From positions 122,805 through 186,804 of the forward strand of contig JAVKOQ010000089.1 in assembly GCA_031835245.1 (NCBI GenBank): a stretch of 64,000 nucleotides of DNA. The letters are read 5' to 3'. The position numbers were made by a program, and so were the translations under genes. The stretch's first letter is position 1; every line of letters begins with the position of its first letter. The stretch is from Balamuthia mandrillaris. Taxonomy: Eukaryota > Discosea > Longamoebia > Balamuthiidae. The notes under the pieces are model-generated. The model did no database searches, was not told the DNA's origin, and worked only from the letters and a program-made list of their open reading frames with translations. Below, one piece after another: positions 34,725-38,945 of the stretch.

Positions 34725-34842
34725 CAAAACATTTTTTCGATTATTGATCGGATTGATTATTTGTCGCCTAAATTTAAAAGTTTGTAATTTTTTCGAAATA
34801 TTGTGATATATTTCCGATTTAGTATCGCAATAAACCTCCGGC

Positions 34843-34911
34843 GTGCCTAATCACGGCTTGTCTTACGACTCGCTATAAGCAACGGTGCCGGCACCAAAGC
34901 AACCTTACCGC
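34843..34911 (-). ncRNA. candidate omega-RNA / right-end region of the Fanzor element
   Basis: The ~70 bases immediately 3' of the Fanzor stop are GC-richer than the AT-rich DNA beyond about 34840 and contain a perfect 12-base palindrome, GGTGCCGGCACC (34884-34895), flanked by repeated GCAAC words, plus a smaller CGTG/CACG stem. In TnpB and Fanzor systems the guide RNA scaffold comes from the 3' end of the gene and its flank, ending at the transposon boundary. That function is inferred from position; no transcript or boundary is proven here. Confidence 0.35.
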
Positions 34912-36651
34912 CTACCGCCCCCTCACAGAGGAGGAGGAGGTGGTGGTAAGTGCTTGTAACGTAAAAAAGCGGATCAAGATGTTTCGGGAGGCGTTGGCAT
35001 CTCGATCGGCCTGGTAGCCACACTCGGGTTGGGGGCACCGAAAGGTCTTGTTTCCCCCCAACTGGTGGTGGACTTGGCCGCACTTGCCGCAGGTCTTGGA
35101 GGTGTATTCCTCATCGCAGAGGCAGACCGTACAGGACGGAAATTGCTTGGCCTTGTTGAGGAGCCTCTGCCTGAAGCTATAGTGGGACCAGGTGAGCATG
35201 GCTCTGGCCGTTCGTGAGCCAATGCGTCGGTGGCCTCGCCGCACCATCTGCTGGCTCCTGAACTCTGGCAGAAGGATGAGGGAGAAGTTCCTGACCAACC
35301 AAGACACGAGCTTCTTGTGGAGGTCATCCACCAGGTTGCGGATCCTCTGGCGAAGCCGAGCAGCGGCCCTTCGGAGACGGCGCCGTTGCCTGTGGTTGAC
35401 CTTGGTGCCCTTACTCTGCATGCGGTCCAGGCGGTGGCACAGCTTGCCTATCTCGTTGATGTCCGCTTTGCCCCACTCGGTGACCTCCCCGCAGCCGTTG
35501 TAGGTGGTCATGAATGTGCGCACTCCTGGATCCAAGGCGATGATGCCTGCCTCTCTCCTTCGGTGCTCACGGACTTGGCTCTCGCCCATGAGCTTCAAAG
35601 GCTGAGGCACACAGAGGTAGTAATGGCCCAGTCGAGTGTCTTTCACCAGACGAACGGCATAGAGCACCTCCGACGGAACTTTGTAGTTCTTGTCCCTCGC
35701 TTTGATTCGCGTCTCCCCGAAGAAGAGTTGGCGGATGGACTTGCTGTGGTTCCACTCCCTGGCTTGGATGCTGAGAGACTGGCTCTTGTCCTTCCGACCA
35801 CGGAACTTCATCTTGAATCCAGTCCTGCCCGCCGCCAAGCTGGTTTTCACGCCGTTGAAGAAATCATCGACGGCGTCACTGCGAATGTATCGAGGAGTTT
35901 CCAACACCCACGCAAGGCTCTTGTCCTCTCCGTTGAAATTGCCGTTATTCAGGAATTTCTCCCTGACTTGTTCCTTCATCTCCTTAAGAGGCATTCCTTT
36001 ATGTTCACGATGAAACTCCACGGCCTTGTTGTAGGTCCATCGTACTGTGCCGAACCACTTGGCCAGCGTCTTCTTTTGTTCCGAGCGCGGATAAAGGCGG
36101 ATCTTCTCCAATCGCCCCACTACCGGTTTCTCCTCTCCATTCTTGCCTTTTTTGGTGAGCTGTACGGCTGGGCGAGACGGAACGAGTCCCTCGATGAGGC
36201 CTAACAAGCCTTTCTGGTTTTTCTCCTCTTCTTCCTTCTCCTTCTCCTTCTCCTCTTCCTCTTCCTCCTTCTTCTCCTTCTCCTTCTTCTCCTCCTCCTC
36301 CTCCTCCTCCAACACCTTTTCTCCGTTAGGAATGTGCTTGCAGGCGGTGAACCATCCTGAACCACAGGCAAAGGGTTCTTCCAAGCACAAGGCTTCTGGG
36401 CGTATTAATCTTCTCCCGATTTCGCTGGAAAACTGGTTCCAAAAGGGCTGGGCGGGTGCAGCCTGCGGCCTTCCACGCTTCTGTGCCCTTGCCTGAGGTG
36501 CCGCTGGGGCGTTTTCCGCTCTTCTTTTCCGAGTAGCAGTGGGAGTAGAAGAAGTAGTGGTGCGACCCCCTTCCTTGTGGACCCGACCGAAGTGAACGGC
36601 CAACCCGTGAGAGGTAGCAAACTTTTTTCGGCACTGTGGGCAACTTGCCAT
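34912..36651 (-). CDS. Fanzor (eukaryotic TnpB-like, OMEGA) RNA-guided nuclease with N-terminal C2H2 finger
   Basis: Intronless, 579 residues. A classic C2H2 finger opens the protein (C4, C7, H20, H25; C-X2-C-X12-H-X4-H), then a basic Ala/Pro/Arg linker and a Glu/Lys run (about 114-145). The OrfB/TnpB core starts near 180 (IRLYPRSEQKKTLAKWF, RWTYNKAVEFHRE). All RuvC acidic residues are in place: Asp374 in ALDPGVRTF, Glu463 in LLPEF and Asp549/Asp551 in ADRDANASRNIL. The C-terminal zinc ribbon has CGKC (521-524) and CPQPEC (539-544), the second pair being C-X4-C instead of the usual C-X2-C. The enzyme should cut DNA guided by an omega-RNA. No stop or frameshift is seen, so it may be active or recently so. 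The ATG at 36651 is preceded directly by an in-frame TGA, which fixes the start. A possible 5'-UTR intron (GTAGCG at ~36808 to AAAAAG at ~36714) lies upstream. Confidence 0.9.
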   Translation of the reverse strand: MASCPQCRKKFATSHGLAVHFGRVHKEGGRTTTSSTPTATRKRRAENAPAAPQARAQKRGRPQAAPAQPFWNQFSSEIGRRLIRPEALCLEEPFACGSGWFTACKHIPNGEKVLEEEEEEEKKEKEKKEEEEEEKEKEKEEEEKNQKGLLGLIEGLVPSRPAVQLTKKGKNGEEKPVVGRLEKIRLYPRSEQKKTLAKWFGTVRWTYNKAVEFHREHKGMPLKEMKEQVREKFLNNGNFNGEDKSLAWVLETPRYIRSDAVDDFFNGVKTSLAAGRTGFKMKFRGRKDKSQSLSIQAREWNHSKSIRQLFFGETRIKARDKNYKVPSEVLYAVRLVKDTRLGHYYLCVPQPLKLMGESQVREHRRREAGIIALDPGVRTFMTTYNGCGEVTEWGKADINEIGKLCHRLDRMQSKGTKVNHRQRRRLRRAAARLRQRIRNLVDDLHKKLVSWLVRNFSLILLPEFRSQQMVRRGHRRIGSRTARAMLTWSHYSFRQRLLNKAKQFPSCTVCLCDEEYTSKTCGKCGQVHHQLGGNKTFRCPQPECGYQADRDANASRNILIRFFTLQALTTTSSSSVRGR

Positions 36652-37526
36652 TCAGGCCAGCTTCCAGCAGCGTTGTGGAAGAGGCGCACAGAGGTTCGTG
36701 ATGCTGTTCTTTTTTAAACAAAAGAAATCATTAGTGAGTGGTTGGTAACAAATTTTTTTTCCATCATCAAAAAATGTAGTGAGCGAGCAGAGAAAAAAGA
36801 ACGCTACCTTTTCAATCGGAGCGGTGCCCCTGCCTGCTGCTGAACCGCTTCGGTTTCCACCTGTGCCTCCTTCCGCCGCTGGTTTCCTCCTTGTGTAGTA
36901 GAAGCGTAGCAATGAGAAATACGGTGGTGCGTGGAGCTTCGTGGATGTGTGTGTCTGTGTGTTTACTTTTGAAAAGAAAGAAACGACAAGAAAAGAAGAG
37001 AAGAAAAGAAAACGAGTAGCAGAAAAGTGTCAAGGCGAATGACGAGTACCAAAAGTTTATTGGCGGCAGCAGCATGAGCATCCATTCCATTCACCCCACC
37101 CCACACCCCAACCCACCACTTTGCCTTCGAAGACGTGGGAGAAGGAAGGGTTGTTTTGGCGGGAAAAATGCTCATTGGCCCAAAAGACGAATGTCGGGAT
37201 TTCTTTTTTGTTGTCCTTAGATCTTATGATCTTTGCGTCGCCTTACAAGCAACACTGGTGTAACGCAGCGCTTCTCTTCTTCTGGACACAAAACATGGGG
37301 AAGGGAGAAGGCAGAGCAAGCGAAGGGACTACCACACCTTTATCTACAAGGTGCTTGCACAAGCAAGTGCACCCCAACAAGAGCATCAGCAATCAAGCTA
37401 TGCTCATCACGGACTCCTTCATTAGGGGCATTGCCTATCCGCTCTTGCAGGAGGCCACCATGCTGTTGCCTGTTGTTTTTCTTTCGTTCTCGTGCTTCGT
37501 TCCTCTTCTTCATCATCTGTGTTGCA
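36652..37526. other. 875-bp region upstream of the Fanzor gene
   Basis: It lies between the Fanzor 5' end and the 3' end of the next minus-strand gene. No credible coding frame: several overlapping open frames on both strands look like random T-rich translation. It should hold the Fanzor promoter, a possible 5'-UTR intron and, if the element is mobile, its left end. I found no terminal inverted repeat shared with the other side, which is normal for IS605/IS607-like elements. Confidence 0.45.
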
Positions 37527-38543: not shown

Positions 38544-38551
38544 TGTCGACA
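38544..38551. promoter_or_regulatory. TGTCGACA box upstream of the F-box/membrane gene
   Basis: Exact octamer 91 bp upstream of the minus-strand ATG at 38453, in the gap shared with the divergent BET gene. Confidence 0.5.
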
Positions 38552-38945
38552 TGAAATTAGGATATCTCATGTCCATTCTCACGTCTTACAAAATGGCAGG
38601 AAAAAAATTCCGAATAAAAATAATATTTTAACGGCTCCAAAACGCACCGCGAAAAAAAAAGAGTCGAAGGGCACAGAGGAGTAGCGGAGAGAGCAAGCAA
38701 GTGCCGAGCCGAACGCTGCCAGTCCAGTTCATCCGCTGTGTTTTTTTTTTTCTAAAAAAACCGCAGTAATTCTTGGAACAAGTGATAGAGAGTTAACGAG
38801 GTGAGTGCAATCAATCAATCAAAAAAAACAATCTGATCAGCACTGAAAACTGGAATTCTTTCTACGCATCAGATTTTGATAGTGATCTGCAAGAAGAACC
38901 AGAGAGTTCTGACGAGTCAGTGTGGGAACAAGCGCTTCCGAAAGA

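Follow-up and report, generated by a model that had tools for sequence, protein, structure and literature searches.

A Fanzor2 nuclease with an N-terminal C2H2 finger, apparently carried by an inverted-repeat transposon family of Balamuthia mandrillaris

What kind of element carries a Fanzor gene that begins with a zinc finger, and what could the finger contribute? Fanzors are eukaryotic relatives of the ancestors of CRISPR nucleases. The window analysed here is a 64,000-nucleotide stretch of the Balamuthia mandrillaris assembly (64.8 Mb, 775 contigs). An earlier note, made from its letters alone, described a complete Fanzor nuclease of recent mobile origin with a C2H2 finger fused to its N-terminus. 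Our analysis leads to a reading to which we assign a probability of roughly 0.78. A Fanzor2 out of its IS607 context would be riding a family of inverted-repeat DNA transposons (Fanzor2*), would have gained a C2H2 finger at its N-terminus, and is proposed to act by an RNA-guided mechanism. The label Fanzor2* follows Yoon 2023: the element has inverted repeats and 10-bp duplications, and no IS607 recombinase was found beside the Fanzor2.

The intact 579-residue ORF was found exactly at 34912..36651 (single exon, stop codon included) on the minus strand, where the features of protein, element, target site and candidate guide RNA given below also lie. An in-frame TGA stands immediately 5' of the ATG, so the finger sits at the true N-terminus. 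The protein passed the NCBIfam model NF040570 (guided_TnpB) with 122 bits, against a cut-off of 100. It also matched the Pfam families Cas12f1-like_TNB (PF07282, the zinc ribbon; E 1.2e-15), HTH_OrfB_IS605 (E 7.2e-10; residues 183-213, 36013..36105) and, slightly below the cut-off, OrfB_IS605 (E 1.5e-6). Its best PDB matches are mimivirus L79 and TnpBs, L79 (PDB 9b0l) being the nearest solved protein both by sequence (E 7.1e-26) and with a 45-row profile (E 3e-51); the top protein matches are Balamuthia mandrillaris proteins annotated as 'transposases'. These matches and the neighbouring ORFs bear out the call of a Fanzor nuclease, of type 2 and in eukaryotic host DNA. Within the 187-kb contig, one neighbouring ORF carries 5'-nucleotidase and mitochondrial-carrier domains and another encodes an F-box protein, and copies of the family are scattered over many contigs of the assembly. 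Contamination is therefore not supported and was rejected.

The active site was assigned in an alignment (A1) of 45 rows, in which the window protein is joined by 44 homologues out of the 120 listed (277 found). Of the three acidic positions proposed earlier, two stand in 45/45 rows: D374 of RuvC-I (35530..35532), within a DPG motif (D374, P375, G376) that is likewise present in all rows, and D551 of RuvC-III (34999..35001). The third, E463, was rejected as the catalytic glutamate. That position is Glu in 10/45 rows and Lys in 16/45, against Glu in 45/45 at E514 (35110..35112), and mimivirus 9b0l has a Lys aligned with 463 and a Glu aligned with 514. Moreover, E514-x6-C521 fits the pattern E-x6-C-x2-C ahead of the ribbon, which corresponds to the Fanzor definition ExxxxxxCxxC in the accessible text of PMC10711439. 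Thus, the predicted catalytic glutamate of RuvC-II is E514, the Fanzor-specific E-alt, and not E463. The TnpB zinc ribbon was correctly recognised from the start: C521, C524, C539 and C544 (C521-C544, 35020..35091) are recovered both by PF07282 and in A1. Its C-x4-C half, which had been considered non-standard, is uncommon but not unique, as P0007 has it too (1/43 other rows where the ribbon pattern was found).

The N-terminal extension contains the C2H2 zinc finger (residues 4-25, 36577..36642), a basic KRGRP motif (residues 58-62, 36466..36480), which we take to be AT-hook-like, a PFWN...GWF segment (residues 68-101, 36349..36450) and the acidic Glu/Lys linker already described (residues 113-150, 36202..36315). 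The PFWN...GWF segment is common to many Fanzor2 N-terminal extensions, P69 being conserved in 31/45, W71 in 32/45 and W100 in 33/45 rows of A1. The finger has the spacing C4-x2-C7-x3-F11-x5-L17-x2-H20-x4-H25, the textbook layout of the pattern C-x2-C-x3-F-x5-L-x2-H-x3-5-H, and a rough estimate puts it far beyond what chance would produce in a single protein. It scores below the Pfam gathering cut-off (14.3 bits against 27 in the window copy, 16.2 against 25.2 in P0002), its E-value being 0.071 in the window copy and between 0.015 and 0.016 in sister copies that have G8. Single short C2H2 fingers usually score under the Pfam cut-off.

Within the searches made, the finger is indeed non-standard for Fanzors. 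The strict motif occurs in 1/120 listed homologues, P0002, a Balamuthia protein of the same family, and in 0/43 viral frames read (of 46 viral loci). Residues 1-70, compared with 5.8 billion proteins, matched only Balamuthia P0001 and P0002, among the 50 candidates that shared words. No source of the finger was found. Judged by these searches, the finger appears to be confined to this Balamuthia family. In addition, a literature search returned no paper naming Fanzor together with C2H2, and none naming Fanzor together with Balamuthia. The new part here is the finger, Fanzor2s in inverted-repeat transposons having already been published (PMC10711439, accessible text).

The elements that carry the Fanzor are about 2.5 kb long and are bounded by imperfect terminal inverted repeats. 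The earlier note proposed to look for further copies, and a genome search with the Fanzor gave 87 matches (75 of 580 candidates scored). Of the 20 best-matching places, fetched together with flanks of up to 3 kb, 16 have an intact ORF (568 aa or more); picking the best matches biases this sample towards intact copies. The proposed recent mobile origin agrees with this count, which supports recent activity of the family. Most of the 20 copies begin with TAAGGCGGCGCAAAGATCA... at the left end and finish with ...TGATCTTGGCGCCGCCTTA at the right end, and this end pattern (<=2 mismatches) was found at 255 sites genome-wide, against 0 in a reversed control. At eight left-end sites that lack a full Fanzor (L051-L058), the match to the element covers no more than its first 20 to about 600 bases.

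Exact 10-bp target duplications lie flush with both ends in L013, L015, L016 and L028, and the same holds for L107 and L108, which are short derivatives. Thus, inverted repeats and target duplications, the two marks by which Fanzor2* is recognised, occur together in these six loci; the window copy is without its right end. The duplication of L023 differs at 1/10 positions, and several other copies, including L011, L019, L022, L025 and L027, have no 10-bp duplication pair. The comparison with empty sites was successful for L028, whose target is present once at a paralogous locus on C102; for L016, no empty allele was found in the same genome. In the left flanks, CAG starts at -12 in 10/26 and within -13..-9 in 18/26, control windows giving 0 to 3/26. 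Three of 29 flanks were left out of this count: L010, whose flank is the same as that of L009, and L107 and L108, with <60 bases. At the other side, G is the first base past the right end in 25/30. According to these counts, insertion prefers a CAG target (CA|G).

A transposase was looked for at loci with element ends only (8 left ends and 10 right ends). Twenty long frames from 16/18 of them (all but L111 and L112) gave only host-type Pfam domains or none. None of 68 MULE genome hits lies within 10 kb of 100 listed terminal-repeat sites (of 255; compared by eye). Twelve of the 68 MULE-domain hits (PF10551) start 1279-1314 bases from the contig start, perhaps as a subtelomeric gene family. Some information about the mobilising machinery comes from odd insertions. 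Among 44 loci examined, L010, L014, L018, L058, L113 and L120 have exact 10-bp duplications with one arbitrary end. L010 and L018 carry extra DNA at the left, L014 is truncated at its left end, L058 consists of the left 101 nt only and L113 of a 29-nt right end. L120 (C253:32520-35500) is a 92-bp insert with termini of two origins: on the left the inverted right end of the IS607-type Fanzor2, on the right the end of the inverted-repeat family. CA precedes 5/6 of these insertions. Duplications formed despite one arbitrary end point to one-ended insertion by the mobilising machinery.

Directly after the stop codon lies a conserved segment (34834..34911), ending in ACGCCGGAGGT, a candidate guide-RNA scaffold. 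The 78 nt reaching from the stop codon to GGAGGT have 3 variable sites and are identical in 15/20 copies, the window copy included. This is fewer than upstream of the ORF (3/78 against 69/529, P 0.015) and in the tail (24/96, P 9e-5), and not significantly fewer than in the ORF (122/1743, P 0.36); 241/2395 windows of equal size are as conserved. Genome-wide, a 91-nt version is identical in 32/40 copies scored (75 candidates; biased to the best). Extended by the ORF tail (34834-34960), the segment reaches a folding energy of -52.1 kcal/mol (z -2.44), and the 80-nt core alone (34834-34913) folds no better than shuffles (z +0.52). An Rfam search of the segment gave no match. In full copies (five folded), the segment is able to pair with the right repeat, a pairing that the accessible text of PMC10711439 predicts for Fanzor2*. 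With shuffled tails, folds as low were reached in 138, 127 and 20 of 200 for the three copies compared, and the pairing does not clearly do better than such tails. A solo 119-nt remnant of the segment on another contig (C7:290180-290298, in L021), 85-88% identical, ends exactly at ACGCCGGAGGT. If the scaffold ends at GGAGGT, the would-be guide of the window copy is the adjoining single-copy flank (34814..34833).

The relatives of the protein raise the question of whether this is simply a canonical IS607-type Fanzor2 element. A serine recombinase lies nearby in 45/46 viral relatives and in 5/7 own-genome loci of 44-56% identity (four of the five inspected); the two without it, on C79 and C80, look like fragments. 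The IS607-type Fanzor2 loci of this genome are on C27, C71, C774, C57 and C622. In four such loci (L029, L030, L032 and L033), the recombinase frame overlaps the Fanzor frame, and in L033 (C57:195700-199501) the IS607-type Fanzor2 match is followed ~430 bp later by a right end belonging to the inverted-repeat family. Against this neighbourhood of recombinases, our family has both inverted repeats and 10-bp duplications, and when the 20 fetched copies, with flanks of up to 3 kb, were searched for a TnpA-like recombinase (core domain), no match with an E-value of 1 or less was found. A search for TnpA remnants within the element returned mostly low-complexity sequence among the first 25 matches listed. 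IS607-type Fanzor2 elements are reported without repeats and without duplications in the accessible text of PMC3627910, and none of the own-genome IS607-type ends inspected showed inverted repeats. An IS607 element was thus rejected, and we give this reading next to no credit.

The earlier note had also proposed a tree, and a quick one was built with 63 rows, no Fanzor1 included. The family falls in a group of 29 rows (SH-aLRT 96) with own-genome IS607-type and Lipomyces proteins, the viruses staying outside. Within this quick tree it is placed beside P0071 (83) and not beside the own-genome IS607-type proteins. From this placement, the family looks like a capture that did not branch off recently from the IS607 families resident in the genome.

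Even if the family is of the Fanzor2* type, the window copy could be a dead or altered remnant of it, its right repeat deleted after transposition, so that guide RNA and mobility would be unlike those of the family. 'Complete', as used by the earlier note, is right for the ORF and wrong for the element (34834..37245), since the right terminal repeat is absent. The left terminal inverted repeat (TAAGGCGACGCAAAG..., 37203..37245) is present, next to a canonical target site CA|GTGTTGCTTG (37246..37257). At the other side, the copy stops at breakpoint 34834 directly after ACGCCGGAGGT and gives way to single-copy DNA, whereas the shared tail continues in 19/19 other fetched copies, L017 and L020 then being without its last part. 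No second copy of the 10-mer target GTGTTGCTTG was found in L009. Moreover, the target duplication of the copy on C48 (L010) encloses ~300 bp that correspond to the left flank of the window copy, in pieces matching 37246..37339 and 38548..38750, with ~1.2 kb missing between them. The window locus or its ancestor would thus once have served as a complete donor (transduction), and the right end of the window copy was probably lost after transposition. On the other hand, the ORF is intact and its protein may still be made, and the 3' segment has its commonest form. The break also falls exactly at the end of that segment, and the solo remnant on C7 (85% identical) stops there too; this may mark a functional end and not a random deletion. 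On balance, we lean slightly towards the window copy being such a remnant.

A doubt of another sort concerns the finger, which could be a passively carried, non-functional addition to an ordinary Fanzor2 whose element moves by its inverted repeats with no role of the finger. In pooled pairwise comparisons of the 16 intact copies, its dN/dS (0.457) is above that of the HTH (0.107) and not below that of the whole ORF (0.357), and the other Fanzor2s examined do without a finger. C4, C7, F11, L17, H20 and H25 are invariant in 16/16 intact copies and in 12 N-terminal pieces (L039-L050), although the young age of the copies and the dN/dS of the finger make this invariance weak evidence of constraint. 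Two further observations speak against a passive finger: its first Cys is already at ORF residue 4, and the copies without a whole finger are themselves damaged or partial, being frame-broken (L024, L025, L027), degenerate (L035), deleted or degenerate (L038) or without a match before residue 17 (L036). We consider a finger without function unlikely, while keeping it as a serious alternative. For the finger and the KRGRP motif we infer instead a contribution to DNA or chromatin binding.

Beyond what the sequence establishes, namely the fingerprint of DPG, E-alt, ribbon and RD, the element type, the CAG preference and the candidate RNA segment at the 3' side, the enzyme most likely works like other Fanzor2s, by RNA-guided cutting. 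An RNA from the 3' segment, extended into flanking DNA, would guide the D374/E514/D551 site to cut a matching target beside a short motif, and cutting would favour copying the element back into sites that it has left, in line with the literature on TnpB and Fanzor proteins. The finger and the KRGRP motif would hold the enzyme on DNA or chromatin, and a transposase would act in trans on the inverted repeats. A single C2H2 finger contacts about 3 bp. It is tempting to speculate that the finger reads the CAG of the insertion site, so that the Fanzor would help to choose or hold the target by combining a protein-read motif with an RNA guide, a proposal that we regard as a long shot. In that case, CAG would also be the motif beside the target of the guide. 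The left end (CAG-N9 followed by the element) and the right end (TTAG-N9-flank) would then be spared from cutting, and only the empty site (CAG-N9-flank) would give a full match.

Under the preferred reading of a Fanzor2* with a gained finger, Balamuthia adds to the cases in which an inverted-repeat transposon has apparently captured a Fanzor2, here alongside IS607-type Fanzor2s in one genome. This makes it a useful case for the proposed route from IS607-TnpB to Fanzor2 and then to Fanzor2*. The CAG site and the conserved 3' segment provide concrete predictions for target motif and guide RNA. This natural zinc-finger-Fanzor fusion would, provided that its finger binds DNA, be a ready-made example of how a compact RNA-guided nuclease can be given protein-based targeting.

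Among known systems, Fanzor1 SpuFz1 is likewise an RNA-guided eukaryotic nuclease in a DNA transposon, and its REC domain is reported as larger than that of Fz2 (accessible text of PMC10432273); the Balamuthia protein best matches L79 and TnpBs. The IS607-type Fanzor2s, own-genome and viral (mimivirus L79 included), share with the family the RuvC D/E-alt/D residues, the ribbon and the HTH region. Five own-genome loci of this type are 44-55% identical to it, and the profile match to 9b0l has already been given. Unlike the family, these own-genome and viral loci adjoin a serine recombinase and are without the finger, and the own-genome ends inspected are without inverted repeats. The closest counterpart by description, not by sequence, is Fanzor2*, the Fanzor2s that Yoon 2023 describes from cut-and-paste transposons of molluscs and Chloropicon primus (PMC10711439, accessible text), with the same Fanzor2 fingerprint and with inverted repeats and duplications instead of IS607 ends. 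From these, the Balamuthia family differs in its C2H2 finger, in its 10-bp duplication with CA|G and in its host lineage.
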